Assembly: GCA_029558955.1 (NCBI GenBank)
Contig: JAKQCW010000253.1
Coordinates: 1-48,847 of the forward strand
Source of the DNA: Chloroflexota bacterium
Lineage (GTDB): Bacteria > Chloroflexota > Anaerolineae > JAAEKA01
Length of the DNA: 48,847 nt
Direction: 5' to 3'
Part shown: piece by piece, positions 7,610 through 24,839 of the stretch
Position numbering within the stretch: position 1 is the first letter of the stretch
How the letters are laid out: the number at the start of each line of letters is the position of its first letter
Notes under the pieces: generated by a model
Databases searched by the model: none
What the model was told of the DNA's origin: nothing
The model's input: the letters and a program-made list of their open reading frames with translations, nothing else
Position numbers and translations under genes: made by a program

Positions 7610-9298
7610 ATGGCAAGTCAATCGGCTTACCAGTTTGACGTCTATATCAGCCATAGCCCAGATGATGAAGAGTGGGTGGATGGCTGGCTGCTGCCGCGGC
7701 TGGAAGCGGCCGGGCTGCGGGTCTACGTGCACTACCGCGACTCCCAGCCGGGCGCGTCGCGCCAGAGCAACATCGAGCGAGGCATGAAGGGCAGCCGGCG
7801 CACCGTGGCCGTGGTGACGCCGGCATGGCTGGCCAGCGAGTGGAACCTGTTCGAAGACACGCTGGTGCGCAGCCTGGACCCGGCCGCCCTGCGCCGCCGG
7901 CTGATCCCCCTCAAGCTCAAGGAATGCGAGCTGCCCGAGTCGCTGGCTGCGCTGGAGAGCATCGATCTAACTGCCGAGCGGCGCTGGGAGCAGGGCATTA
8001 GCCGGCTGCGGCGCGATCTGGAGGACATAGTGCCCGTGCCGGCGCCGTGGCGGCAAGACCCCGGCGCGCCGCTCTGGACGCGCTGGCGGCGTTGGCTGCG
8101 GAGGTATCGGCGGGAGGTATTTTGGGGTGTTGCAGGTGCGGGTCTTGTCGGGGCCGTGTTGTTCTCGTTTCTGGGGTGGTGGCCGTTTCAGGATCGTCTG
8201 GTTTGGACAGCCGAAGCACTGGATGCGCCATTCGGATGGGTGGTCCACATCACGGGCGTCGCATTGATTGTCGGCGCGCGCAATCCACTGGAAGGCTGCG
8301 ATCACCCACACAAAGGCTTGTGGCAACGTCCCCTGGCCGATCCGGACGCCTGGCAGGACAGCGATGTGGGTGACTTGTTGTGTATTCCAAACCGCGACGC
8401 GTTGTCAGACATCCAGGCGATCACATCGCTGCCATCAGAGCCAACCAGGGTGTTTGTCTTGACCAGCCACTCTGGGGTGTTGGTCAGCGAAGACGACGGC
8501 GCACATTTCGAACACTATGCAGTTGGGCCGCCGGTGGAAACCGACAACGTCCCCAACTTGCTGGTGATCGACGGATCAGATGAATCGTCTGCGCTATGGG
8601 CCGCGGGTAGGGAGCGCGGCCTGTTTCGCTTTGCTGACGGTGAATGGAGCCGGCTGGACCAGCCGGGTGGCTGCGACGGCCTGCCGGGCGAGTTAGCTGT
8701 CACAGCTCTGGCAACGGACGGCAAGCGTTTGCTTGTGGGAACCAACCGCCGCGGGCTGTGGATCAGTGACGATGGTGGTCAAAGCTGTCGCCAGGTATTC
8801 GATCCCGCCGGTGATTACCAGTTTCGGGATCTTCTACCAGTTCCAGGCAGCGCCCGGCCGCGTTATCTGGCGCTCGTCCGGGATTGGCGGCTGGAGCCAG
8901 GTGGTTCTCTCGGAGCACATCAGTTGCTTGACCTGTGCCCGCGCGCCGACTCGTGCAATTCCGACCAGTGGCGCAGCGACAGCACCCCGGAGTGGGATGG
9001 CAGCAGCGCGGTGAGCGACGTGATAGTACAGGTGGGTCGATCCGGCGAGGCGGAATGGTACCTGTCCACCGCGTTGGGAGGCGTATGGCGCGGCGGCTTG
9101 AGCGGGGAACAGCCAGAACGACTGCCAGGCATCCCGCGCTGTGTCGTGATCTGCGAAGTGCGGCTGGCTTCAGTCGGGCCGGGATCTGCACCCTATTTGC
9201 TGGCGGCAGCGCAACGAGCGGGGCTGCCAACTGTCCTGGCGCCAGGACGTCACTACTCCCTGACCGATGGCCCCTGGTGGGCACGGATTTGGCCTTGA
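7610..9298 (+). CDS. TIR domain - transmembrane - Asp-box beta-propeller protein
   Basis: A 562-aa protein. Residues 8-145 form a TIR domain (FDVYISHSPDDEEW at the start; PAWLASEWNLFE near box 2/3). A single membrane helix (about 168-190) leads to an extracytoplasmic region of about 360 residues with Asp-box-like turns (VSEDDGAHF, ISDDGGQS), as in BNR/sialidase-type propellers. TIR domains either cleave NAD or act as adaptors. Helix C reads SNIERGM, with E56 its only acidic residue; whether this is the catalytic glutamate needs a structural alignment. ATG 7610 has agagg 6 nt upstream. It is the first gene of the operon, with the protease gene 18 bp downstream. GC content drops noticeably in the C-terminal half. 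Confidence 0.82.
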   Translation: MASQSAYQFDVYISHSPDDEEWVDGWLLPRLEAAGLRVYVHYRDSQPGASRQSNIERGMKGSRRTVAVVTPAWLASEWNLFEDTLVRSLDPAALRRRLIPLKLKECELPESLAALESIDLTAERRWEQGISRLRRDLEDIVPVPAPWRQDPGAPLWTRWRRWLRRYRREVFWGVAGAGLVGAVLFSFLGWWPFQDRLVWTAEALDAPFGWVVHITGVALIVGARNPLEGCDHPHKGLWQRPLADPDAWQDSDVGDLLCIPNRDALSDIQAITSLPSEPTRVFVLTSHSGVLVSEDDGAHFEHYAVGPPVETDNVPNLLVIDGSDESSALWAAGRERGLFRFADGEWSRLDQPGGCDGLPGELAVTALATDGKRLLVGTNRRGLWISDDGGQSCRQVFDPAGDYQFRDLLPVPGSARPRYLALVRDWRLEPGGSLGAHQLLDLCPRADSCNSDQWRSDSTPEWDGSSAVSDVIVQVGRSGEAEWYLSTALGGVWRGGLSGEQPERLPGIPRCVVICEVRLASVGPGSAPYLLAAAQRAGLPTVLAPGRHYSLTDGPWWARIWP

Positions 9299-9316
9299 AA
9301 CAATAGAGGTGTGAAC

Positions 9317-12300
9317 ATGGCAGCGTTAGATTTCCAGGAACCGATCTATCCGCCCTTGCGTTGGGAGCTACCCGAGCGCCGTTCGCCAGGCTTACCTGAG
9401 CGTGAACGATTTCCCGTCGATCCGGTGCGCTGGCGGCTCTCAAGCGAGGTGCTGCACGCGCTTCGCAGCAAACATCCAGAGCGTATCGCCGGCCAGTCGT
9501 TTTCTTGGCGTGCGAAACTATTTCGTGCCACTGGTCTGCCGGCATCCTTGCGCACGTGGGTGGATGCCCCATTCTCCCTTGACGACGAAAAAGCCCAAAG
9601 CGAAGCGCACAGGGTGTTGACGGCCAGCCAACTGTTCTTGGCGCTGTTTGGCGCGGCCAATGAAGACAACCCTGCGAATGATTTTGATCCGGCGCCGATC
9701 ATCAAGGTACAGACCAGCCCTGGTCAGGATGGCGGTGCAGTCATGCGCCATTTCTCCTGGCGCCAGATACATCGAGATGTGTCAGTGCTGGGCGGCAGCG
9801 TGCGCGTGCATGACGTGACCGGCGACCGTCGCGTCTGCGTCACCAGCAGCTATTTCCCCGTGTCCGACGCCCCACCCGATATGGAAAAGTATATCAGCGC
9901 CGTAGATTGCATGTGGTTCGCGCTGCTCTCCTTGCTTGAAACCAGAGCCATTTCTCCGGAAGCCATATTGGCAATCATGGTGCCGCGATTTTTTCGGGAG
10001 CGACGAGGACAAGAAGCCGCAAATTTCTTTCGTGTTCTGGAAGAGGCATTCTCACGTGGTAACTGGGGAGACGGTGGTGAGCTCTCCTGGCTCCTGACGG
10101 AGGCCTTCGCCAGGTGGCGTGAGCGTGGTGAGGGCAGTGATGTCGCAGCAGAGGAACTGGAGCTAATCAGAGACTGGCTGCGGATGCGCTACGACGGTGT
10201 CAAGTTTCGAGTCGAGGTAGCGCCCATTCAGGGTAGCAAACTTGCCATCGTGCCCTGGGCCGGAGCGTATGCATTGATGCAGCGCGTCCAGGTGACGCTG
10301 CCGAACCATTTACTGTGGTACGTCGATATCGATGCACACAACGGCAACGTCTTGGGCGCTCCGTGGCAGGCCGTGGCTGGAGCACCGACCTATTTTACGA
10401 CTTCGGGGGAGGCTGCTGCTGAGATGCCGGTCGGGGATGCAGCCAACGTTTCAACCAATGATCTGGCCGCCTATGTGACTGTGCTGGATGGCGGCACCGT
10501 GCAGTTGGGCGCAAACAGATCCTTGTCGGCTTCACTATCCGTCGACGCGGCAACGGTCGTGGTGCATGGTCAACAGCTCTTACAGCATTTGCAGAACCAC
10601 TGCGGCGCCAATCTCACCCCACCGCCTTCTCCCCTGACCGTCTATGCCCGTAGTACGCAGCATGACATCCAGGTTGCCGGATTCATTCCTGGCTCCCCCG
10701 GCGCGGTGCATTTCAAGAGCACCCCGGCGGCTGGCGCCATGGTGGGCGGCATGAGGGTCTTCCATCCTGCACGAGACCCTGAGGTTGTCATGCACGAGTT
10801 CGCCCACGCGTTTCTGTGGCTGATGAACCCCGATCCGTGGGATGTGCTCACGGGGCTGGCTCCGTTCAGCCGCGCCTTGCAAGAGGGCTACGCCATGTAC
10901 CTCTCGCGTTCCCTGGCTGCCAAGAACGGAGATAACCAAGATCAGCGCTGGGGTCGCGGCGCATATCGTCCTCAAAACGCCAATGGCACGGACAACTGGG
11001 CCGATCGTTGGCGGCTGGACCGCCCCACCCGCGTGGCGGGCGCGGATTTCTTGCCGGCCCTCAACGCCTATCCAGCGGGCGAGTACACCCTCCAACTCAC
11101 CCTGGAGGATTACGATGTAGGTATGGTATGGGCGCGGGCGCTGTGGGACCTGCGCACTGTGCTGGGTCCAGCGGTCGTCGACAAGCTGGCGGTGCGCGCT
11201 TATCCCTACCTACACGGCCACCTGACCAGTTTCGAGCTGGCGGCCGAGGCGTTAATCAACGCTGACGCTCAAGTGAGCGAGATGGACCTGGGCAACGGCA
11301 CCCAGCCTGTGTGGGCTGGTCGCGGCATCGCGGCCGGTCAGGGCATCTGCGGCTTCGCCGAGACACAGAACGGCACATTGACCGCTGCCGGCGAGGCAGG
11401 CATTCTGCGCTCCGACGACGGCGGCGCCAGTTGGGCGTCAGAGAGCGCCAACCTGGCCGGCGGAGGCACCCTCACAGGCGTCGTAGCAGTGGCAGCCGAT
11501 GGCAACCACCTGATCGCTATCGCCGAGTTGCCCCCGCCAACCGCCACTGGCAGCGATCCACAGTGGAACCCTGGCGTCTATTGGCGTGACCTGAGCCAGG
11601 CGGGCAGCCTGTGGCAGGAAGTCCCCAACTGGCCGAACGACATCACCCCGTTGTGTCTGCTACGCGTTGGAAATGGGCGAGTGCTGGTGGGCAGTAATCG
11701 CGGGGTATATGTGCTCGATCGAAGTGGGACAAACCAGTTTAGCTGGACGCCACCCACGGACACCAGCTTCCCCGCTCTGGCGTTGACGCAGGTAACGGCG
11801 CAAGGGCTCAACTTCGTCCAGGCCATGAGTCCCGGCAGGCTGCACAGAAGTATCCTGTCCAGTCAAGGAACGCTATCCTCAACGTGGACCGAATCGGGCG
11901 GACTCTTCGATGCGGCCAACAAGACGCGGGTCACAGCATTGGTTGGTCTGGGTTCCGATGTGTTCGTGGGAATCTTGCCATCTGCCTCTCAATCTAGCGC
12001 CGCGTCAGGGGCCGGAAGCAGGCTGAGGCAACTCAGCCAGAACTGGTCAGTCAATGCGCCGTTGGGCAACGTGACATCGGCGGTGTTGGCTCTTGCTGTC
12101 GGTGCGGGCGCGGTTTGGGCAGCCACGTCCGACGATATCCTGCGCTGGCAGAACTCGACATTGACCTCGTTTGGGTACCCTGCTCCACGGGCGCAAGTGA
12201 CGAGTCTGGCAATCACTGCTACTCACTTGTTGGCTGGAACGCTCGCCCACGGCATCTGGCGGCGCCCTCTGGTCGGCGGCTCTTGGCAATCAGTCTACTC

Positions 12301-12586
12301 TCCAACTCAACCAGGCAACCTATCGGTTCCGGCCAATGGTGCTGTCGTGCTGAGCGTGTTGCTGGACGCTGATCAGCCGGCCTTTACGTTCAATGTACCA
12401 GGTGGCACCCTTGCTGTGGATGCAGTTTTTCAGGTTGGATTTCCTCCAGCCTTGATTGCTCCGAACAATCTAGGTAACTACAATCTGGAGACAGGCGCTG
12501 TCGTTTTCACGTTGCGAAACCTGACAAACACAGAACAAGTCTTCCAAATGAATCGAGTCGCTTCCGATCAACTGATAGTGACGTGA
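9317..12586 (+). CDS. Giant HExxH (gluzincin-like) metalloprotease with Asp-box propeller C-terminus
   Basis: A 1089-aa protein. About residues 200-400 resemble a propeptide-like region. The zinc motif is H493-E494-F-A-H497, and E523 in LQEGYAMYLS is a plausible third ligand, as in thermolysin/fungalysin-type gluzincins. From about residue 670 to the end there are propeller-like repeats including a perfect Asp box, SDDGGASW (about 697-705), the same theme as in the upstream TIR protein. No signal peptide is visible at ATG 9317, which has AGAGG 7 nt upstream; it may therefore stay in the cytoplasm or leave by another route. The DNA is less GC-rich than the neighbourhood. It lies 23 bp before the next gene, in the operon. 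Confidence 0.78.
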   Translation: MAALDFQEPIYPPLRWELPERRSPGLPERERFPVDPVRWRLSSEVLHALRSKHPERIAGQSFSWRAKLFRATGLPASLRTWVDAPFSLDDEKAQSEAHRVLTASQLFLALFGAANEDNPANDFDPAPIIKVQTSPGQDGGAVMRHFSWRQIHRDVSVLGGSVRVHDVTGDRRVCVTSSYFPVSDAPPDMEKYISAVDCMWFALLSLLETRAISPEAILAIMVPRFFRERRGQEAANFFRVLEEAFSRGNWGDGGELSWLLTEAFARWRERGEGSDVAAEELELIRDWLRMRYDGVKFRVEVAPIQGSKLAIVPWAGAYALMQRVQVTLPNHLLWYVDIDAHNGNVLGAPWQAVAGAPTYFTTSGEAAAEMPVGDAANVSTNDLAAYVTVLDGGTVQLGANRSLSASLSVDAATVVVHGQQLLQHLQNHCGANLTPPPSPLTVYARSTQHDIQVAGFIPGSPGAVHFKSTPAAGAMVGGMRVFHPARDPEVVMHEFAHAFLWLMNPDPWDVLTGLAPFSRALQEGYAMYLSRSLAAKNGDNQDQRWGRGAYRPQNANGTDNWADRWRLDRPTRVAGADFLPALNAYPAGEYTLQLTLEDYDVGMVWARALWDLRTVLGPAVVDKLAVRAYPYLHGHLTSFELAAEALINADAQVSEMDLGNGTQPVWAGRGIAAGQGICGFAETQNGTLTAAGEAGILRSDDGGASWASESANLAGGGTLTGVVAVAADGNHLIAIAELPPPTATGSDPQWNPGVYWRDLSQAGSLWQEVPNWPNDITPLCLLRVGNGRVLVGSNRGVYVLDRSGTNQFSWTPPTDTSFPALALTQVTAQGLNFVQAMSPGRLHRSILSSQGTLSSTWTESGGLFDAANKTRVTALVGLGSDVFVGILPSASQSSAASGAGSRLRQLSQNWSVNAPLGNVTSAVLALAVGAGAVWAATSDDILRWQNSTLTSFGYPAPRAQVTSLAITATHLLAGTLAHGIWRRPLVGGSWQSVYSPTQPGNLSVPANGAVVLSVLLDADQPAFTFNVPGGTLAVDAVFQVGFPPALIAPNNLGNYNLETGAVVFTLRNLTNTEQVFQMNRVASDQLIVT

Positions 12587-12609
12587 ACATTCGTCGGAGG
12601 AGGTACAAG

Positions 12610-13482
12610 ATGCAACGTCCAAGCATTCTGCTGCTCGCTATCGTTCTCACGATGGCATCACTCGGAGCGTCTTTGCGTTTGGCCACACAAGCCACACAAG
12701 GCGTCGATTCCTCTGCCGGCCAAGACATGGCCTCAACACGACCTGTTTCTGGCTCAATGCCAGGTGCGCCACATGCCAGTCTCGACCTCGTTGCTGAGTA
12801 TGCTTTTGATCAGACCGATCAGGAAGCTGCCCTTTGGACCCTGGGCAGGGATGGTCGAGCTGGAAAACGGCTCAGTTTTCTGCTAACTGGCAGCAGAATC
12901 AAGACCTATGCTGAGCCATCGCTCGTGAAAACCGCTGTCAATCATCGCCGTCCGATGATATGGTTGAATCGCAATGAGGACAAGGAACCCAATACCTACA
13001 CCTTGGTCGCCATCAGCGATCCAGAGCTGTTACTGAGACTCCAGATGGACCGTGTCCATTCATTGTCGACGATCATGCCCAATCTGCCCTCGGAAGAACT
13101 CCGGAAGACAGCCAAAGACGTCGGACTTTGTCCGCGCGATCTCGGGGAAGACAGCCGCGTCCCGGTGGAGGAGCTTGCCATTGGGCGAGCCCTGAGCGCC
13201 ACACTGCAAGGCGAGTTGGTCGCGCCAGATGGCACGTTCGTACCGATCACCATCAGCCACGTCGATTTCCAGCACGACGCAGAGTTGGCCCAACTCTGCT
13301 ACAACACGCCTGGTTTTGTTCTGCTTGCGCCCTCCTTTCCTGGCTGGCAAGACTACCAACTACACATGGTCTTGAAGAACAATGTCGCCGGGCCGCCGGG
13401 CGAAGGATGGGTGCCTCTGTGCAGTAGCTGGCAGGCAGGCAACTGGTGGAATCGTTTTCTAGCGACCCTCTATGGTTGCTGA
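12610..13482 (+). CDS. Exported protein of unknown function
   Basis: 290 aa, not recognised. It starts with a typical Sec signal sequence (MQRPSILLLAIVLTMASLGA), so the mature protein should be extracytoplasmic. ATG 12610 follows a very strong ribosome site (GGAGGAGG) at ideal distance; an in-frame GTG at 12583 would spoil the signal peptide. The mature part has few cysteines, the last residue is cysteine, and no catalytic motif stands out. Base composition is visibly less GC-rich than its neighbours. The protease and caspase-TIR genes lie 23 bp before and 18 bp after, so it belongs to the same transcript and probably the same system. Confidence 0.7.
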   Translation: MQRPSILLLAIVLTMASLGASLRLATQATQGVDSSAGQDMASTRPVSGSMPGAPHASLDLVAEYAFDQTDQEAALWTLGRDGRAGKRLSFLLTGSRIKTYAEPSLVKTAVNHRRPMIWLNRNEDKEPNTYTLVAISDPELLLRLQMDRVHSLSTIMPNLPSEELRKTAKDVGLCPRDLGEDSRVPVEELAIGRALSATLQGELVAPDGTFVPITISHVDFQHDAELAQLCYNTPGFVLLAPSFPGWQDYQLHMVLKNNVAGPPGEGWVPLCSSWQAGNWWNRFLATLYGC

Positions 13483-13500: not shown

Positions 13501-14769
13501 GTGACGCCTCTCCCTTCCGCCCACGCCCTCCTCGCCGGCATCGCCGCCTACCAGCACGTCTCCCCGCTGCCGGCGACGGTGCTGAACGATGCGCGCGCGG
13601 TGTATGATGTGCTGGCGGCTCCGGAGCGGGGCGGCTATGCCCGCGACCACGTCACATTGTTGTTGGACGGCGCAGCCACGACGGCAGCGCTGCGCCAGGC
13701 GCTGGCTGACCTGGCGCAGCGCTGCGACGCCGACGCCACGGCGCTGATCTATCTCTCCTGCCACGGCGCACGTATCGAGCAGGGGCCGCAGGCCGGCCAG
13801 TACCTGCTGCCGGTGGACGCGGATGCCAGCTCGCCGCAGGCCCTGGCCGCCACGGCCATCTCCGGCGCCGAGTTCACCGATGCGCTGCGGGCCATTCCGG
13901 CGCGCAAGGTGGTGGTCATTTTCGACTGCTGCCACGCCGGCGGCATCGGTCAGCCCAAGGACGCGTTGGCCCCGGCGCTTCAAGCCGGCCTGACCGAGCG
14001 CTACTACGAGGCGCTGCTGGCCGGCCGGGGCCGCGTCATCCTGGCCTCCTCGCGCAGCGATGAATTTTCCTATGCCTTGGCTGGCGCCCCCAACAGCGTC
14101 TTCACCACGCATCTGCTGGCCGGCCTGCGCGGCGACGTCGCCGCCGATGACGGCCTGATCCGCATCTTCGACCTGTTCGAATACCTCCAGCCGCGCGTCA
14201 CCGCTGCCATGAACGGCCGCCAGCATCCGGTCTTCAAGGCTGAGATCGAGGAGAACTTCCCGGTGGCGCTGCGTCTGGGCGGCCAGGCCAAGGCCGTGGC
14301 CCGCGCAGCGGATGGCTACCTGTACGACGCCTATCTCATCTACGCCGAGAAGAGCGAGCGCGACCGGGAGTGGGTCTGGCGCAACCTGATCCCGCCGCTG
14401 GAGGACGCTGGCCTGCGGGTGGCCATCTCAGCCGATGTCTTGCAGGCCGGCGTGGCGCGCGTCGCCACGGTCCAGCGCGGCATGCAGCAGGCCCGGCGCA
14501 CGGTGGTCGTCCTGTCGCAGGCCTTCCTCTCCGACGCCATGGCCACGTTCGAGGCCGTTCTGGCCCAGACCATCGGCATCGACCTGGAAAACGCCTGGCG
14601 CGTGGTCCCGGTGCTGACCGAGGCAATCGATCAGAGTCGACTGCCCTACACCCTGGCCAGCCCTATGGCTGAGCCGATTGACCTGGTCGCACCGCTGCGA
14701 CCGGCCTATGGCCTGCCCCGCCTGGTTCGCGCCCTGCAAGGGCCGCCGCCCGCGATTCTGCCCCGCTGA
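13501..14769 (+). CDS. Caspase-like protease fused to a TIR domain
   Basis: 422 aa. Residues 5-250 form a C14 caspase/metacaspase-like p20 domain with the catalytic dyad: H88 in SCHGA and C144 in DCCHAG. Residues about 272-412 form a TIR domain (DAYLIYAEKSERDREWVW). Its helix C reads TVQRGM, so Q325 stands where the upstream TIR protein has E56, which suggests an adaptor or sensor TIR, not an NADase. There is no signal peptide, so it should be cytoplasmic. GTG 13501 has AGGAAGG 6 nt upstream; the overlapping ATG at 13499 is followed at once by TGA. It is the fourth gene of the TIR/protease operon. Bacterial caspase-like proteins are known effectors of TIR signalling in antiphage defence (type IV Thoeris), which makes the pairing meaningful. 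Confidence 0.85.
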   Translation: MTPLPSAHALLAGIAAYQHVSPLPATVLNDARAVYDVLAAPERGGYARDHVTLLLDGAATTAALRQALADLAQRCDADATALIYLSCHGARIEQGPQAGQYLLPVDADASSPQALAATAISGAEFTDALRAIPARKVVVIFDCCHAGGIGQPKDALAPALQAGLTERYYEALLAGRGRVILASSRSDEFSYALAGAPNSVFTTHLLAGLRGDVAADDGLIRIFDLFEYLQPRVTAAMNGRQHPVFKAEIEENFPVALRLGGQAKAVARAADGYLYDAYLIYAEKSERDREWVWRNLIPPLEDAGLRVAISADVLQAGVARVATVQRGMQQARRTVVVLSQAFLSDAMATFEAVLAQTIGIDLENAWRVVPVLTEAIDQSRLPYTLASPMAEPIDLVAPLRPAYGLPRLVRALQGPPPAILPR

Positions 14770-16046: not shown

Positions 16047-18293
16047 TCAGGGACCAGCCGCCCAGGCCACGGTCAAGACGTGCAACGCCAGGATCGGGTA
16101 CTCCATGCGCTGCATGCCGAACTCCTGCATGCGACCGGCCGCCTCCTGCAAGATCGCGGCCACGTGGGGGGCCTGGCGTTCGACCGGCAGGCGGCTGAGC
16201 AGGCTGGCCAACTGCGCCACCCCTTCTTCCAGCTCATGCCGGGCCAAGGTTCGGGCGCATTCCTCGATCTCGCCGCTGAGCTCGTTCATCTCCTGGCTGC
16301 CCTTTTCCATCTGTTTGCGCAGCGTCAGCAGGGTCTGGGCCATGGCGGTGCCAGCCTCCTGATCGCACTGGCGCAGCAGCGTCACGAAGTTGTTTTCATC
16401 CCCTGCCAGCCGGGCCACGCTCAGCGCCATCTCGCGGCGGGAGCTGCGGCTGGGGCTGCTGGCCAGCAGTTCCAGCAGGCGGCCGGTGGCCTCGATTATC
16501 TGCATGCGGCCCAACATGGAGGCGTAGGCCAGTTGCATGCCCACGTCGCTTTCTTCGGCGATGCCGGCCAACGCCAGCGCCGCGCTCTCTTGATCGCCCA
16601 ACACCCCCAGCGAGCGGAGGCTGTGGGCCCGCACCGAACGGTATTTGGAGCCGGCCGCGGCCTGGCGCAGCAGCTCCCGGGCGCGCAGATCGCCTGAACG
16701 CCCCAGCGCCCAGGCAGCCACAGTGCTCAGCGCGGGCTCGGGGCCGTTCAGCACCTCGCCTAGCGCGTCGATCAGCCGCGGGTCAGGCCCATGGCGCGCC
16801 ACGGCGACCACCGCCTCGAAGCGCACGTTGAAGCGCGGGTCATCCAGCGCGTCCAGCAGCTCTTCCACTGTCAGCGGGCTTTTGGAGGCGCCCAGGCGTT
16901 CGGTGACCCGGACGGCCGAGTCCTCGTCTTTGGCCAGATGAAAACGCACCATGGCCTCCAGCGCCAGGAAGGGGTTGCCGCGCAGGAAGATGCCGGCAAA
17001 GCCGCCCATGCCGATGGTGGTGTCATCGCGGATGCGCCGCAGGACGAAGATGGCCGCGATGGGCAGCACGATGCCCAGCACAAACAAGGGGGTGTAGGGG
17101 TCGATCGGGATGCCGCCCATGCCGGTGGAGAGATTCCCGGCCGCGGTCAGCAGCCAGCCGCCGAAGAGCTGGCTCAAACCGCTGATCAGCCCCACCCAGG
17201 CCCAATAGACCGCCATGTAGTCATCGCGTTTGGCCGCGGGCACGATGCTGACGTAGAGCAGCCGGGTCGCGCCCACCTGCCAGCCCACGTCGGCGAAGCC
17301 CTGGAAGACCGCGCTGGCCATGGCGGCCGGCAGGGCAGCGCCAGACAGGCCGGGCAGCATCATCCAGAAAAGGGGCAGCAGGGCGCGAAAGGCCAGGCCG
17401 TAGAGGGTCACCGGCCGGCCGCCGTAGCGGTCGGAGGCCCAGCCCCAGAAGTAGCTGGAGATCAACGCGCCGACCATGACGCCGGTCTGCAACAGCACCA
17501 CCTGGGAATCGGGCAGGCCCACCTGGTCCTGCATGAACAGCGGCAGAAAGGCGCTCAGCGGCACGGTGGCCAAGGTGAAGAGTCCCACGCCGGCGAGATA
17601 GCGCATCATGTGGCTGTCGCGCAGTGCGTCTTTGATGTCGCGCTGCGGCGCGGGCTTGCTCTTGTCTGGCTTGCGCGGCGCACCGCCAGGGATGCGAATG
17701 GCCAGCGCCACCGAGATGAAGCCGAAGACCACGCCGACCGCGATCAGCACCATGTAGCCGGTGATACCGACGGTGCGCGCCAGCACCAGGCTGGCCAGGG
17801 TGACCGCGGCGAAGCCGGCGATGGTGGAGTAGAAGTTGTTGCTGGCGGTGTACTTGCCCCGCACCGAGTTGGGGACATATTCCTGGATCCAGGGGAAGCC
17901 GGCCGACACGCCCACCGTGCGCACCAGGGCATAGACCAGAACCACGGCCGTCATGAAGCCCATGGCGGCATCGGGGCCAAAGCGCGTCACCACCAGCGGG
18001 GTCAACAGCAGAAAGGCGGTGATGAAGGTGCGCAGGCCGAAGAAGCCCAGCCAGGTGCGCTTGTAGCCCCAGCGGGCGATGGCCGGCGCCAGCGCCAACG
18101 CCAGGATGCCGGTGAAGGGCAGCAGCGACAGCAAAAAGCCGATCTGCACGGTGTCCAACCCCAAGCTGCTGAGGAAGAGCACGAAGATCGAGCCAAAGAA
18201 GGTCAGTTGCAGATAGACAGCCTGCGCGGCGTTGGACGCGATGCTCCAGGGCAGCGCGCGCAGCTTGTCGACGTTGGTAGGTTCGCTGTGCAT
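16047..18293 (-). CDS. MFS transporter fused to C-terminal HEAT-like repeats
   Basis: 748 aa. About 430 residues form a 12-helix major facilitator domain (SLGLDTVQIGFLLSLLPF; SDRYGGRPVTLYG as the second motif A). A cytoplasmic tail of about 300 residues follows, made of HEAT/PBS-like alpha repeats (LLDALDDPRFNVRFEAVVAV, ALGRSGDLRARELLRQA). Substrate is unknown. The tail may dock a partner or regulate transport. I chose the ATG at 18293 because a good promoter places transcription start only about 3 nt upstream, implying a leaderless mRNA. An in-frame upstream extension to 18362 would begin before the promoter. It is convergent with the CrtC-like gene. Confidence 0.8.
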   Translation of the reverse strand: MHSEPTNVDKLRALPWSIASNAAQAVYLQLTFFGSIFVLFLSSLGLDTVQIGFLLSLLPFTGILALALAPAIARWGYKRTWLGFFGLRTFITAFLLLTPLVVTRFGPDAAMGFMTAVVLVYALVRTVGVSAGFPWIQEYVPNSVRGKYTASNNFYSTIAGFAAVTLASLVLARTVGITGYMVLIAVGVVFGFISVALAIRIPGGAPRKPDKSKPAPQRDIKDALRDSHMMRYLAGVGLFTLATVPLSAFLPLFMQDQVGLPDSQVVLLQTGVMVGALISSYFWGWASDRYGGRPVTLYGLAFRALLPLFWMMLPGLSGAALPAAMASAVFQGFADVGWQVGATRLLYVSIVPAAKRDDYMAVYWAWVGLISGLSQLFGGWLLTAAGNLSTGMGGIPIDPYTPLFVLGIVLPIAAIFVLRRIRDDTTIGMGGFAGIFLRGNPFLALEAMVRFHLAKDEDSAVRVTERLGASKSPLTVEELLDALDDPRFNVRFEAVVAVARHGPDPRLIDALGEVLNGPEPALSTVAAWALGRSGDLRARELLRQAAAGSKYRSVRAHSLRSLGVLGDQESAALALAGIAEESDVGMQLAYASMLGRMQIIEATGRLLELLASSPSRSSRREMALSVARLAGDENNFVTLLRQCDQEAGTAMAQTLLTLRKQMEKGSQEMNELSGEIEECARTLARHELEEGVAQLASLLSRLPVERQAPHVAAILQEAAGRMQEFGMQRMEYPILALHVLTVAWAAGP

Positions 18294-18355: not shown

Positions 18356-18384
18356 TTGGCAAGAAGCCCGACCTGGCGTATCAT
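18356..18384 (+). promoter_or_regulatory. Promoter of the selenoprotein/formate dehydrogenase operon
   Basis: TTGGCA (18356-18361) and TATCAT (18379-18384) have a 17-bp spacer. It is divergent from the MFS-HEAT promoter, and start ATG 18423 follows with an aaagga ribosome site. Confidence 0.65.
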
Positions 18385-18422
18385 AGCGGCCAGGAAAACC
18401 CGGCGTCTGAAAGGAATCCCCC

Positions 18423-18896
18423 ATGCCCCGCATCATCGCCGCCGCCGCCCCCGATTTCACACTGCCAGATCCGCAGGGTCAGCCGGTGAGCCTGGCCGAT
18501 TTCAAGGGCCAGAAAAACGTCGTGCTGGTCTTTACCCGCGGCTTCACCTGACCGCACTGCCGCAGGCATCTGGCGCAGTTGCGCCAAGACTATCAGCAGT
18601 TCGTGCAGCGTGACGCACAGATCGTGGTCATCGGCCCGGAAGGGCATGACTTCTTCGCCAGCCAGTGGGCCAAGGGGCAGTACCCTTTCATCGGCCTGGC
18701 CGACCCTGAGCACACCGTGGCCGACCGCTACGGCCAGGAGGTCAAGCTGCTGAAGTTTGGCCGCATGCCCGCCATCCTGGTCATCGACAAGCAGGGCCAG
18801 GTCATTCAGAGCTACTACGCCGGCAATATGCGCGACTATCCACCCAACAGCGAGCTGCTGACGGCCATCGACGCCGCAAATGCCCCCGCCAGCTAA
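18423..18896 (+). CDS. Peroxiredoxin-like selenoprotein (in-frame TGA = Sec43)
   Basis: 157 aa if the TGA at 18549-18551 is read as selenocysteine. The frame is open from ATG 18423 to the TGA and continues in the same frame to TAA 18896 with clear thioredoxin-fold/AhpC-TSA sequence on both sides: APDFTLPDPQGQPVSLADF before; DRYGQEVKLLKFGRMPAILV after. The TGA sits exactly at the redox position of the motif FTRGFT-U-PHC, which is CPxC-like in homologues. A hairpin of the right size follows. It would be a thiol/selenol peroxidase or oxidoreductase. Its stop codon overlaps the ribosome site of the NuoEF-like gene, so it heads the formate dehydrogenase operon. Alternatives are a sequencing error or a nonsense mutation, but either would be unlikely to hit precisely this codon. 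Confidence 0.8.
18571..18586 (+). promoter_or_regulatory. Candidate bacterial SECIS hairpin
   Basis: TGGCGC and GCGCCA form a perfect 6-bp stem with a 4-nt loop AGTT. The stem begins 19 nt after the TGA and the loop 25 nt after it. Bacterial SECIS elements lie inside the coding region just after the UGA, with a small apical loop carrying a G near its start, which this fits. A fold prediction was not run. Confidence 0.5.
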
Positions 18897-18906
18897 GGAG
18901 TCCGCC

Positions 18907-21054
18907 ATGCACCCCGATCTGAGCGCTGCTCTTCTCCGCTTTGAGGCTGACCTGCGCGCCGGCGACCTGGACCGGGCCGCGCTTTTCTGGCTGAAAACCT
19001 TCGTCGGGCAGGCCTTGGCCGGCGACGGCGTGACGCGCTCCGACCGCTGGGTCGAGGCTGGCCTGACCGCTGCCCAGGAGACCCCCGGTCTCTCGGCCAC
19101 CAGCCTGGAGCCGCGGCAGCGTCTGGTGGCAGACTACGGGCTTTTCCGCTTCGTGCGCCTGAAGGATGAGGCCGAGTTCAGCGGCGGGGCTTTGGCGACT
19201 CTGGACTGGCAGCGCAAATATCGCGTCAGCCTGCTGGCCATTTTCGCCGCCGATCTGCCCGCGCTGGCCGCTTGGGTCGAGGCGCGCTGGAGCCTCTGGG
19301 GCGGGGTCGATCCGCAGATGGCCGCGTTGGAGAGGGTGTTGGCGCGTCTGGGCGGCGCTGCGCCGGCTGCCCCCGACGCCCGCTCCTACCTCATCGAGAT
19401 TCTCCATGAGGCGCAGGAGATCTTCGGCGGCTGGCTGCCGCGGCCGGCCGTGGAGCGCATCGCGGCTGCGTTGGGTCTGCCCCAGGCCGAAGTCTACGGC
19501 GTCACCGAGTTCTACGACATGTTCCACACCGAGCCGGTGGGGCGCAAGATGATTCGCGTCTGCCAGGATGCCTCCTGCGCCGTGGCCGGCGGCGACGCGC
19601 TGCTGGCTGGGCTCTGCCGCCATCTGGGGGTGCAGCCGGGCGAGACCACGCCAGACGGCCGCTATACCGTGGAGCCGGTGCGCTGCCTGGGGCTGTGCGA
19701 CCGGGCGCCGGCCGCGCTGGTCAACCGGGCCCGCTACGCGCCCGCCTGGCCCGATGCGGCCGGCGCGATGTTGATGGGGCCGCCCGCCGCGCCCCCTTTG
19801 CGCATCGGCGGCCTGGTCAAGATCGCGCTGGCCAACGTGGGGGTGGTCGATCCCACCAGCCTGGATGACTACCGCGCCCAGGGCGGGCTGGCCGCGCTGC
19901 GCAAGGCGGTGCATCAGATGAGCCCGGCCGAGGTGTTGCAGGCGGTCAAGGAGAGCAAGCTGGTGGGCCGCGGCGGCGCGGCTTATCCGACCGGCCTGAA
20001 GTGGCAGCACGCGCTGGACAACCCCGCGCCCCGCTACGTGATCTGCAACGCCGACGAGAGCGAGCCGGGTGCGTTCAAGGATCGGGTGCTGATGGACGGC
20101 GACCCCTTCCGCGTGGTGGAGGGGCTGATGCTGGCCTGCTATGCGGTGGGCGCGGAACATGGCTTCATCTACGTGCGCGGCGAGCATCGCCTGGGCTACG
20201 AGCGTTTCAGCCATGCGGTGCGGCAGTTGGAGGCCGCCGGCTGGCTGGGCGAACAGATCCGGGGACGCCCCTGGAACCTGCGCATCGAGGTGCGCCGCGG
20301 CGCGGGCGCCTACGTCTGCGGCGAGGAGACCGCGCTGATGGAGAGCATCGAGGGCAAGCGCGGCTTTCCGCGGCTGCGCCCCCCCTTCCCCACCACGGCC
20401 GGCCTGTGGGGCTGCCCTACGGTGATCAACAACGTGGAAACGCTGGCCAAGGTGCCCTCCATCGTCATGCACGGCCCGCGCTGGTATGGCGACCTGGGCA
20501 CGGCCGACTCGGCCGGCACCAAGCTTTTTGCGGTCAGCGGCTCGGTGGTGCGGCCCGGGGTCTACGAGACCCCCTTTGGCGTGCCGCTGCGCCATCTGAT
20601 CTTCGACCTGGCCGGCGGCCTGCGGCCGGGGCGCAGCGTGCAGGCGGTGTTGACCGGCGGCGCGGCCGGCACCTTTCTCACGGCCGAGCACCTGGATACC
20701 CCGCTGAGCTTCGCGGCCTTCAAGCAGGTGGGCGGCACCATCGGCGCGGGCACGGTGATGGTCTTCGACGACAGGGTGGATCTGCTCGACGTGCTGGTTC
20801 GCATCGGCGCCTTCTTTGCCCATGAGAGCTGCGGCAAGTGCTATCCCTGCCAGATAGGCACGGCGCGCCAGGCCGAGATTCTGGCCCGCATCGCGGCCGG
20901 CGACGCCCGCCCCGACGACGCGGCGACGCTGGTCGAGCTGGGCCGGGTGATGACCGACGCCAGCATCTGCGGGCTGGGCCAGGCCGCCTCGTGGGCCATC
21001 GTCGACGCCCACCGGCGCTGGCCGGCGTTGTTGACCAGAAAGCAGCAAAGGTGA
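18907..21054 (+). CDS. NuoE-NuoF fusion: diaphorase subunit of NAD-dependent formate dehydrogenase
   Basis: 715 aa. The first 150 residues or so form an unrecognised domain. Next comes a NuoE-type thioredoxin-fold [2Fe-2S] domain (CQDASC and CLGLC). A NuoF-type region follows, with the FMN loop (GRGGAAYPTGLKW), NADH-binding segment (CNADESEPGAFKDR), SLBB-like part and [4Fe-4S] motif (CGKCYPC and a later cysteine in SICGLG). It should pass electrons between NAD(H) and the formate dehydrogenase iron-sulfur chain. ATG 18907 has AAGGAG 6 nt upstream, which excludes the in-frame ATG at 18880. The molybdopterin and HoxU-like partners are encoded nearby on the other strand. Confidence 0.9.
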   Translation: MHPDLSAALLRFEADLRAGDLDRAALFWLKTFVGQALAGDGVTRSDRWVEAGLTAAQETPGLSATSLEPRQRLVADYGLFRFVRLKDEAEFSGGALATLDWQRKYRVSLLAIFAADLPALAAWVEARWSLWGGVDPQMAALERVLARLGGAAPAAPDARSYLIEILHEAQEIFGGWLPRPAVERIAAALGLPQAEVYGVTEFYDMFHTEPVGRKMIRVCQDASCAVAGGDALLAGLCRHLGVQPGETTPDGRYTVEPVRCLGLCDRAPAALVNRARYAPAWPDAAGAMLMGPPAAPPLRIGGLVKIALANVGVVDPTSLDDYRAQGGLAALRKAVHQMSPAEVLQAVKESKLVGRGGAAYPTGLKWQHALDNPAPRYVICNADESEPGAFKDRVLMDGDPFRVVEGLMLACYAVGAEHGFIYVRGEHRLGYERFSHAVRQLEAAGWLGEQIRGRPWNLRIEVRRGAGAYVCGEETALMESIEGKRGFPRLRPPFPTTAGLWGCPTVINNVETLAKVPSIVMHGPRWYGDLGTADSAGTKLFAVSGSVVRPGVYETPFGVPLRHLIFDLAGGLRPGRSVQAVLTGGAAGTFLTAEHLDTPLSFAAFKQVGGTIGAGTVMVFDDRVDLLDVLVRIGAFFAHESCGKCYPCQIGTARQAEILARIAAGDARPDDAATLVELGRVMTDASICGLGQAASWAIVDAHRRWPALLTRKQQR

Positions 21055-21735: not shown

Positions 21736-23970
21736 CTACGCCACCACAGGATCCTTGATCGCCCCCCGTGCGGTCAGCGCCAGCCCGGCGTCTTGCGCGG
21801 CCGGCGGTGCAACAGCCCGTTCGACCCGCACGCTGCATACCTTGTAGTCGGGAATCTTGGCGCGCGCGTCCAGGCGGTTGTCGGTCAGCACATTGGCCGC
21901 GGCCTCGGCGAAATGGAAGGGAATGAAGACCGTGCCCTCCGGCGAGCGGCCGGTGACCAGCAGGCGGGCGGTGATCGCCCCGCGACGGCTGGCCACTTCC
22001 ACCCAGTCGCCCATTTCCAGCCCCAGCCGGGCCGCGTCGTGCGGGTGCAGTTCCACCGTACACTCCGGCCAGATGGCATCCAGCACCGAAACGCGCGTCA
22101 TGGTGCCTCCATGCCAGTGATAGAGCACGCGGCCGGTGCTGAGGGTGAAGGGGTAGGCCGTATCGGGCAGCTCGCTCTCGGTGCCAAATTCCACCGGCCA
22201 GAAGCGGCCGCGGCCGCTGGGGAACTCTTCGACAAAGAGATAGGGGGTGCCTGGATGATCCACCTGCGGGCAGGGCCAGTGGACGCCCCCCTCCCGTTCC
22301 AGCCGCTGATAGGTGATGCCCCAGAACTCAGGCGTCACCCGCCGCATCTCCTCCCAGACCTCCTCGGGGCGCCCATAGCTCCACTGCGCCAGCAAGGCGT
22401 CGCCATGCGCGCCGTGGAACGGATTGGGACGTCCATCTGCCGCCGCCGCAGCGCCCATGCGGCGGATCAGCCGCCGCGCCAGATCGCTGATGATCTCCCA
22501 GTCGGCCCGCGCCTGGCCAGGCGGCGCCAGCGCCACGCGCCCGCGCTGCACCCGCCGGTCAGAGTTGGTGTAGGTGCCATCCTTTTCGGCGAAACCCGCG
22601 GCCGGCAGAATCACGTCGGCGTAGACGTTGCTCTCGTTGAAGAAGATGTCCTGGGCCACGAAAAAGTCCAACTGTTCCACCGCGTGCTGGGCGTGGCGCA
22701 GGTTGGGCTCGCTCATCAGCGGGTTCTCCCCCATCACATACCAACCCTTGACCTGGCCGGTCAGGATGCCATCGACCATCTCGGTGGTGGTCAGGCCGGG
22801 TCGGCCGGGCAGCGGCACGCGCCAGGCCTCCTCGAACCCGCGCCGCACAGCCTCATCGGTCACCGGCTGATAGGCGGTGTAGAAGCCGGGCAGGCCGCCG
22901 GCGTCCGAACAACCCTGGACATTGTTCTGGCCGCGCAGCGGGTTCAGCCCCGTGCCCGGCCGCCCCACCTGGCCGCAGAGCAGCGCCAGGTTGGTCAGCG
23001 TCAGCGTGTTGTCGGTGCCGTGGGTGCTCTGGCTGATGCCCATGCCCCAGTACATGGCGGCCGCGCTGGCCGTGGCATAGAGCCGCGCCGCGCGGCGGAT
23101 CTTCTCAGCCGGCACGCCGGTGATTCCCTCGGCCCATTCGGGGGTCTTGCCGGCCAGGCTTTCGACGTAGTGCTCGAAGCCCTCCGTGCGGCGGGCGACG
23201 AAATCGGTGTTGACCAACTGCTCCTGCACCACCACCTGGGCCATGGCGTTGAAGAGCGCCGTGTCGGTTCCCGGCTTCTGGCGCAGCCAGAGCGCGGCGT
23301 GGCGGGTCATCTCTGTCTGGCGGGGGTCGACCACGATCAGGGTGGCGTGGTTCTTGTGTACTGCCTGTTTGAGGAAGGTGGCGATCACCGGGTGGGTCTC
23401 GGCCGTGTTGGAGCCGATGACCATGAAGCACTCCAGCGCCTTCATCTCGGCGATGCTGTTGCTCATGGCGCTGGAACCGATGGCCAACTGCAGGCCGGCC
23501 ACGCTGCCGGCATGGCAGAGGCGCGCGCAGTGATCGATGTTGTTGGTGCCGATAAGCTGGCGCAGAAGCTTTTGCAGCAGGTAGTTATCCTCGTTGGTGG
23601 CCTTGGCGCAGGCGTTGGCGGTGATGCTGTCTGGCCCATAGGCTGCCCGCAGCGCCAGCAGCCGGTCAGCCACCAGATCCAGCGCCTCCTCCCAGCTTGC
23701 CGCGCGCCAATCCTCCGGCCCGGTCGCGGCGACCCGTCGGCCAGGCCGCGGCGCGGTCAGGTTCCGGCGGATCAACGGCGTGGTCAATCGGTCGGGATGA
23801 TGCACGTAGTCCGTCCCGAACCGCCCTTTGACGCAGAGCCGGCCATAGTTGGGCGCGGCGTCGAAGGGCGCGTCGATGCGCATGATGCGCTCATCCTTGA
23901 CGTAGAGCAGCACCTGACAGCCGACGCCGCAGTAGGGGCAGGTGGAACGAACGACAGAATCTGGTTTCAT
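21736..23970 (-). CDS. fdhA: Formate dehydrogenase catalytic (molybdopterin) subunit
   Basis: 744 aa, molybdopterin oxidoreductase of the formate dehydrogenase alpha type. An N-terminal [4Fe-4S] site is formed by C11, C14, C18 and C46. The Mo/W ligand position is C152 in ARLCHAGSVAGL, where many homologues carry selenocysteine. The bis-MGD binding regions follow, ending with the C-terminal domain (LSTGRVLYHWH). ATG 23970 has GAGGCG directly upstream; longer in-frame starts lack a ribosome site. The [2Fe-2S]/ferredoxin part that is fused in some enzymes is a separate gene 119 bp upstream. The complex should interconvert formate plus NAD+ with CO2 plus NADH. Confidence 0.9.
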   Translation of the reverse strand: MKPDSVVRSTCPYCGVGCQVLLYVKDERIMRIDAPFDAAPNYGRLCVKGRFGTDYVHHPDRLTTPLIRRNLTAPRPGRRVAATGPEDWRAASWEEALDLVADRLLALRAAYGPDSITANACAKATNEDNYLLQKLLRQLIGTNNIDHCARLCHAGSVAGLQLAIGSSAMSNSIAEMKALECFMVIGSNTAETHPVIATFLKQAVHKNHATLIVVDPRQTEMTRHAALWLRQKPGTDTALFNAMAQVVVQEQLVNTDFVARRTEGFEHYVESLAGKTPEWAEGITGVPAEKIRRAARLYATASAAAMYWGMGISQSTHGTDNTLTLTNLALLCGQVGRPGTGLNPLRGQNNVQGCSDAGGLPGFYTAYQPVTDEAVRRGFEEAWRVPLPGRPGLTTTEMVDGILTGQVKGWYVMGENPLMSEPNLRHAQHAVEQLDFFVAQDIFFNESNVYADVILPAAGFAEKDGTYTNSDRRVQRGRVALAPPGQARADWEIISDLARRLIRRMGAAAAADGRPNPFHGAHGDALLAQWSYGRPEEVWEEMRRVTPEFWGITYQRLEREGGVHWPCPQVDHPGTPYLFVEEFPSGRGRFWPVEFGTESELPDTAYPFTLSTGRVLYHWHGGTMTRVSVLDAIWPECTVELHPHDAARLGLEMGDWVEVASRRGAITARLLVTGRSPEGTVFIPFHFAEAAANVLTDNRLDARAKIPDYKVCSVRVERAVAPPAAQDAGLALTARGAIKDPVVA

Positions 23971-24089
23971 AGGACGCCTCACAAAGCTGGCGGAGCGCTG
24001 GGCCAAAATCACTGTATCGCTCTGGCCGGTCTTTGCGCTACACCCCGCAGGGGCCGACCGAGCCAATCAGGGTTACGTGCTGACAGCCG

Positions 24090-24752
24090 TCACACCAGCC
24101 CCTCTTCCATCGCGAACTCCACCTTGCCCTTCAGCGCGCCCGTCGGGCAGACGGCCACGCAGTTGCCGCAGAAGACGCAGGTGGTGTCGGGCAGATCCTC
24201 TTCGAAGAAGGTGGTCACATGGCTGCCCAGGCCGCGGCCGCCCCAGGTCAGCGCAAAGGTGTACTGCACATCCTCGGCGCAGACCTGGATGCAGCGCCAG
24301 CACATGACGCACTGAGCATAGTCGCGCACGTAGAAGGGGTTGTCATCCATCAGGTCGAAGGCGCGCCGCCGGCCGCCGGCGAAACGATCGACGTCGGCGC
24401 CGCTGCGCTCCACCTGTTCCAAAATCTCCGGCGCGTCGTGCAGGTCCACGGTGGAGGCCAGCAGTTCCAGAATCACCCGCCGCGCCGTGTTGACCCGTTC
24501 GCTCGCCGTCTCCACCGTCATCCCTGGCTGCACCATGGCCACGCAGGCCGGCTGGAGGGTGCGCGCGCCGGCCACCTCCACCACGCACAGGCGGCAGACG
24601 GCGTTGGCGGTCAGGTTGGGGTGGTAGCAGAGGGTGGGCACCTCGACGCCAGCCGCGCGCGCCGCATCAAGGATCGTGCTGCCGGCCGGTGCGTCAACCG
24701 CCTGGCCATCGAGGGTGAAGCTGACCGTCGCGAGGGGGGTGGGGTTCTGCAT
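24090..24752 (-). CDS. HoxU/NuoG-N-like iron-sulfur subunit of formate dehydrogenase
   Basis: 220 aa. An N-terminal [2Fe-2S] ferredoxin domain (CYHPNLTANAVCRLC plus a further cysteine) is followed by a His-Cys-type linker. Two [4Fe-4S] motifs come last (CVMCWRCIQVC and CVFCGNCVAVC). It would wire the molybdopterin subunit to the NuoEF-like diaphorase, as HoxU does in bidirectional hydrogenases. ATG 24752 is preceded by ggag at 6 nt and by a good promoter. It is transcribed first, ahead of fdhA. Confidence 0.88.
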   Translation of the reverse strand: MQNPTPLATVSFTLDGQAVDAPAGSTILDAARAAGVEVPTLCYHPNLTANAVCRLCVVEVAGARTLQPACVAMVQPGMTVETASERVNTARRVILELLASTVDLHDAPEILEQVERSGADVDRFAGGRRRAFDLMDDNPFYVRDYAQCVMCWRCIQVCAEDVQYTFALTWGGRGLGSHVTTFFEEDLPDTTCVFCGNCVAVCPTGALKGKVEFAMEEGLV

Positions 24753-24810
24753 GGCGACTCCATTGCCTGGCGCAGCAGGCTTGCGCGGAAAAAGTACGGT
24801 GGTAGTGGCC

Positions 24811-24839
24811 AGTATACCGCAGCTTGCCGCGCGGGGCAA
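24811..24839 (-). promoter_or_regulatory. Promoter of the hoxU-like/fdhA operon
   Basis: On the minus strand, TTGCCC (24839-24834) and TATACT (24816-24811) are 17 bp apart. The expected start near 24804 leaves a leader of about 50 nt before the ATG at 24752. Confidence 0.65.

Follow-up and report, generated by a model that had tools for sequence, protein, structure and literature searches.

The window analysed here, a stretch of 48,847 nucleotides from a Chloroflexota bacterium, contains a peroxiredoxin (Prx)-like gene with a single in-frame TGA, and comparison with its relatives leaves hardly any doubt that this UGA, codon 43, encodes selenocysteine (Sec). Judged from sequence, the explanation as a whole is very probable, namely a peroxiredoxin-fold selenoprotein whose UGA would be translated as Sec by means of SelA, SelB, tRNA-Sec and a bacterial SECIS (bSECIS) hairpin, with redox chemistry at Sec43 and Cys46. 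Translated with TGA as U, the gene encodes 157 residues, in which the only TGA lies in the active-site stretch FTRGFT-U-PHC and the frame then stays open to a TAA, as the original prediction had it; the promoter and ribosome site that it also claimed are located in Table 1, and the scan returned two sigma-70-like sites against 0.1 expected from shuffles. When the TGA is read through, PF00578 (AhpC-TSA; cut-off 26) aligns to residues 6-128 with a score of 90.5 bits and PF08534 (Redoxin) scores 84 bits, and homology therefore extends over both flanks of the TGA. In a profile search of the whole source genome, this gene is the only PF00578 match with an internal stop.

Table 1. Coordinates of the selenoprotein gene, its signals and its downstream neighbour in the window
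Feature	Position	Strand	Basis
Putative sigma-70-like promoter, TTGGCA-17-TATCAT	18356..18384	+	consensus scan, 10/12 matches
Ribosome-binding site, AAGGA	18411..18415	+	read in sequence; ATG 7 nt downstream
Prx-like selenoprotein gene	18423..18896	+	translation, PF00578, orthologous loci, AlphaFold2
In-frame TGA as probable selenocysteine, U43 of UPHC	18549..18551	+	orthologue conservation, Cys/TGA in paralogues, selA + selB + tRNA-Sec present
Candidate bacterial SECIS hairpin, TGGCGC-AGTT-GCGCCA	18571..18586	+	pairing conservation, covariation, synonymous constraint
nuoE-nuoF fusion	18907..21054	+	Pfam, NCBIfam

The TGA codon is conserved without exception among the orthologues read. We searched 199 genomes, mostly of the same class (Anaerolineae) together with nearer kin, using a query in which Cys replaces the TGA, so that the search is unbiased towards TGA. 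Orthologues with an in-frame TGA at 96 bits or more are found in 57 of the 199 genomes, at identities of roughly 40-86%. Specifically, 58 orthologous loci (56 genomes and two public records) were read base by base; TGA stands exactly at codon 43 in all 58, and none carries Cys there despite the Cys-carrying query. The motif R-[GST]-x-x-U-[PM]-x-C is present in all but a few of these loci, conserved residues flank codon 43 on each side, and the invariant residues include R39, residue 43 (Sec), C46, R47, R114 and P116, with C46 replaced by Ala in one locus (L119). This orthologue, which reads FRUPFARA and keeps both the TGA and the hairpin, is a possible single-Sec form, and the resolving Cys is accordingly not universal. 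Outside the class but within the phylum, an orthologue with TGA occurs in two further genomes (L176 and L178). When exact peptide patterns were run against about 85,000 GTDB species genomes, three close relatives emerged. All three carry TGA and belong to Chloroflexota, and one (L048) is identical in sequence to a same-genus locus (L019); the more distant matches consist of ordinary or TxxU Prx and of TlpA-like proteins. Because an exact-pattern scan is insensitive, the limit to Chloroflexota is provisional.

These data bear directly on the reading of the TGA as a true stop, by which the locus would be a pseudogene, a sequencing error, or a 42-residue N-terminal fragment followed by a separate product from TTG 18579. 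TGA is indeed the usual stop codon within the window and the open frame does restart at 18579, but a restart there loses C46, 58 loci, which come from independent assemblies and reach as low as about 40% identity, keep the TGA and the conserved active-site flanks, and the genome has Sec machinery and the gene a conserved hairpin. The original prediction would have fallen had resequencing given TGC or TGT; the independent assemblies are uniformly TGA, which excludes sequencing error, and the 58 independent loci rule out a pseudogene as well. We therefore regard a true stop as very improbable.

The source genome encodes most of the selenocysteine machinery. It contains a tRNA-Sec (69.7 bits, with anticodon TCA by ARAGORN), SelA (555 bits) and SelB (343 bits, pieces joined). 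No selD over the cut-off of 125 is found in the source assembly; its best match, at 86.8 bits, is closer to HypE and was rejected as selD. The missing selD is probably an assembly gap, as the assembly is 94.3% complete. SelD over the cut-off is present in 11 of 12 relatives tested (328-372 bits), and 10 of these 11, including both same-genus genomes among them, carry one in-frame TGA in SelD, which in the three relatives where its position was read is the U of a U-x-x-K motif. The TGA-bearing selD genes of the relatives provide an internal control, indicating at the level of codons that this lineage reads UGA as Sec. Among the four sel genes that the original prediction named, selA, selB and that for tRNA-Sec are thus found, while selD is absent here and present in two same-genus genomes.

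Across the 199 genomes, a strong tRNA-Sec (E below 1e-10) occurs in 48 of 57 carriers of the gene and 99 of 142 non-carriers (one-sided Fisher test, p = 0.024, relatedness not corrected for). This association is modest and, given how widespread tRNA-Sec is in the class, carries little weight. Of the nine carriers without a strong tRNA-Sec, seven have SelB over the cut-off; also among the nine, one genome (G001) has SelD with an in-frame TGA and one shows a partial SelB-like match only.

UGA could alternatively be read as another amino acid, by Trp insertion or near-cognate read-through, and leaky read-through of UGA does occur in bacteria. Against this, the genome encodes tRNA-Sec, SelA and SelB, the hairpin conforms to the bSECIS model, the nearest paralogous groups show Cys and never Trp at the position of residue 43, and most other genes in the window end in TGA. 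Specifically, TGA terminates 11 of the 13 window ORFs checked, on which ground a general stop reassignment was rejected; since TGA is a common normal stop, codon 43 is a case of recoding. Insertion of another amino acid is thus even less probable than a true stop.

In line with recoding as Sec, a hairpin with a 6-bp stem and an AGUU loop lies downstream of the TGA, spanning bases 23-38 counted from its T, with the loop starting 25 nt past the TGA. The published bSECIS model specifies a loop of 3-9 nt, a stem of 4-16 bp, a spacing of 16-37 nt, a G within the first two loop positions and a minimum free energy (MFE) of at most -7.5 kcal/mol (PMC13188914). The hairpin lies within these constraints, with an MFE of -11.3 kcal/mol. 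Over 51 distinct sequences, whose relatedness is not fully corrected for, 99.3% of cells form standard pairs, compared with 17-65% when the hairpin is slid by 1-3 bases as a control. Both sides of a pair change in five cells over the 51 sequences; pair 24-37 switches from G-C to C-G in four sequences, pair 25-36 appears as GC, GU and AU variants, and a 19-sequence subset gives two covarying pairs (relatedness again not fully corrected for). The AGUU loop is kept in 49 of the 51. Additionally, the hairpin sits where synonymous constraint is strongest in the gene, at codons +8, +9 and +10, whose observed synonymous identities are 1.00, 1.00 and 0.93 against expected values of 0.43, 0.64 and 0.36. 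Single-sequence folding energy is not unusual, either against shuffles (z -0.6) or against synonymous recoding (p = 0.09; median 0.087 over 58 loci), and was rejected as proof of a SECIS; support for the hairpin therefore rests on conservation and covariation. At the gathering threshold, Rfam finds only tRNAs in the window, so the hairpin belongs to no curated family. Taken together, the conserved TGA, the presence of selA, selB and tRNA-Sec, and the hairpin strongly support the original claim that the TGA is decoded as Sec.

Seven loci, all from a single bacterial family (L102, L111, L112 and L114-L117), have the hairpin nine bases closer to the TGA. It reads GCGCGC-AGTTG-GCGCGC in five of them and has a GTT loop in two, the GUU loop core being kept.

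Cys homologues of the gene exist among its paralogues. Within the same class, the paralogous groups VFYR..[UC]G.C and FF[IV]RE..[UC].QC each include Cys as well as TGA forms at the position of residue 43; the Cys forms read VFYR..CG.C and FFIRE.[TS]C.QC, and paralogues L123-L129 carry both C43 and C46. In a tree of 123 rows, the selenoprotein clade groups with FF[IV]RE at 98 SH-aLRT, VFYR lies nearby, and the U/C states require three changes. Inside the orthologous clade Sec is uniform and no Cys form was found. The Cys counterparts that the original prediction proposed to align thus occur in the paralogous groups and not among the orthologues read. Four further Prx-like paralogues (L154, L155, L156 and L159) have the motif QRCGUGPD, with an in-frame TGA, Asp in place of the second Cys and a stable hairpin downstream of the TGA.

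An AlphaFold2 model built with 26 orthologues (mean pLDDT 92.9, pTM 0.89) predicts a Bcp/AhpE fold in which residue 43 stands at the head of the active-site helix, which spans residues 44-55 and begins directly after it. The best PDB folds are Bcp4, AhpE and ResA, with TM scores of about 0.74-0.86. In the alignment with Mycobacterium tuberculosis AhpE, the peroxidatic Cys corresponds to C46, and the Thr of PxxxTxxC lies close to Sec43, so that UxxC (UPHC) stands in place of the TxxU/TxxC of Prx. The PxxxTxxC/U signature of true Prx is not retained in R-G-F-T-U-P-H-C, where Sec replaces Thr and the Pro is absent. By alignment, Sec43 occupies the thioredoxin/glutaredoxin-type nucleophile position, and the placement of Sec near the Thr together with C46 at the peroxidatic Cys suggests a two-centre redox enzyme. 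The earlier placement of Sec at the redox-active site consequently holds for the active site as such and not for the peroxidatic position of true peroxiredoxins, with which Cys46 aligns.

We propose that UGA codon 43 would be decoded as Sec by SelA, SelB and tRNA-Sec(UCA), for which the comparative evidence is strong, and that the in-frame bSECIS hairpin would direct this decoding. From its place at the head of the active-site helix, the selenolate of Sec43 would then attack a disulfide or peroxide, Cys46 would resolve the intermediate into a Sec-Cys selenylsulfide, and the selenylsulfide would in turn be reduced by cellular thiols or thioredoxin. We lean slightly towards this Sec43/Cys46 chemistry. 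Retention of Sec without the second Cys in L119 (A46) and in the QRCGUGPD group (D46) points to Sec as the nucleophile. The likeness of U-P-[FYH]-C to glutaredoxin (CPYC) and DsbA (CPHC) sites, set on a Bcp/AhpE-like scaffold, indicates that the protein is probably a cytosolic thiol:disulfide oxidoreductase or thiol peroxidase.

On the other hand, a true peroxidase with Prx or glutathione peroxidase chemistry, in which Sec43 reduces H2O2 or organic peroxides and Cys46 resolves, shares the Sec reading and differs in function; it is a serious alternative, with somewhat less than an even chance. The closest structural matches are the Bcp and AhpE peroxidases, the invariant Arg114 may correspond in the alignment to the active-site Arg of AhpE, and the loss of the second Cys in L119 and the QRCGUGPD paralogues resembles one-residue selenium peroxidases. 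However, the PxxxTxxC motif is broken, with Sec for Thr and no Pro, the invariant GRxPA appears to resemble the cis-Pro loop of ResA/TlpA, and the Prx-like UxxC family is classed in the literature among the thiol:disulfide oxidoreductases (PMC13188914).

Prx-like UxxC selenoproteins within PF00578 have been described since 2005 (PMC1088965, PMC13188914). The original label of a new selenoprotein hence applies to the orthologous group and not to its kind. The Prx-like UxxC/UxxU thiol:disulfide oxidoreductase selenoprotein, represented by WP_010940744.1 from Geobacter, likewise has PF00578, Sec as the first residue of UxxC and a downstream bSECIS; relative to its family, compared by description, the present group differs in its U-P-[FYH]-C motif and in having no Cys orthologue found. 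The Prx selenoprotein (PF00578, TxxU), of which two homologues occur within the same class (L157 and L167), has the same fold with Sec at the active-site helix, but there Sec takes the peroxidatic Cys position, whereas here it takes the Thr position and the Cys is kept. AhpE (Rv2238c) and Bcp, the closest solved relatives in sequence and fold at 21-27% identity, have T-x-x-C with a peroxidatic Cys and no Sec. ResA/TlpA proteins share the thioredoxin fold (TM about 0.74) and carry CxxC at the same helix, with Cys rather than Sec; known ResA is membrane-anchored and extracytoplasmic, whereas no N-terminal anchor is visible in the present protein. No NCBIfam model reaches its cut-off for the gene product, the best match being the SelL-related NF040769 over residues 8-103 at 62.2 bits, far under the cut-off of 120.

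A 2006 survey counts three Chloroflexi selenoproteins, which its passages on the count do not name (PMC1794560). A term search of the 2022 and 2026 selenoprotein reviews returns no mention of Chloroflexi or Anaerolineae, and no description of the orthologous group was found in openly licensed papers; the group is apparently undescribed. A broader picture is tentative and, in our view, somewhat doubtful: an obligate-Sec group confined to Chloroflexota as far as searched, with a glutaredoxin/DsbA-type U-P-x-C on a Bcp/AhpE scaffold, a chemistry unlike that of both Prx and glutaredoxin, and a SECIS shifted by nine bases in one family with its GUU core kept.

The putative selenoenzyme gene occurs in over a quarter of the searched genomes, almost all of which belong to a single large class with few cultured members, and gene callers that treat TGA as a stop would split it, so that a widespread enzyme has probably been missed. 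Because the search turned up no Cys form inside the group and its paralogues have both forms, it offers a natural test of why Sec is retained. Additionally, the near-invariant AGUU loop and its shifted version in one family make up a compact SECIS set for studying recognition by SelB in Chloroflexota.

Downstream of the selenoprotein gene, the nuoE-nuoF fusion starts at ATG 18907, and an AAGGAG at 18895-18900 overlaps the TAA of the selenoprotein gene; the two may be co-transcribed. This adjacency is conserved within the genus only, so a function inferred from nuoEF was rejected as a general one and left out of the account above. Convergent with the fusion, 21736-24839 (-) encodes a formate dehydrogenase-like molybdopterin oxidoreductase whose apparent catalytic residue is Cys rather than Sec (LCHAG) and which has a separate 2Fe-2S/4Fe-4S subunit. 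Divergent from the selenoprotein gene, 16047-18293 (-) encodes a fusion of an MFS transporter with HEAT repeats. Further upstream, a 562-residue TIR-domain protein (7610-9298, +; PF13676, 84 bits) precedes two ORFs without a Pfam match (9311-12586 and 12583-13482), followed at 13501-14769 (+) by a fusion of a caspase (Peptidase_C14, 61.9 bits) and a TIR domain (40.9 bits), which matches a PADLOC caspase model and is a possible cell-suicide or defence effector.
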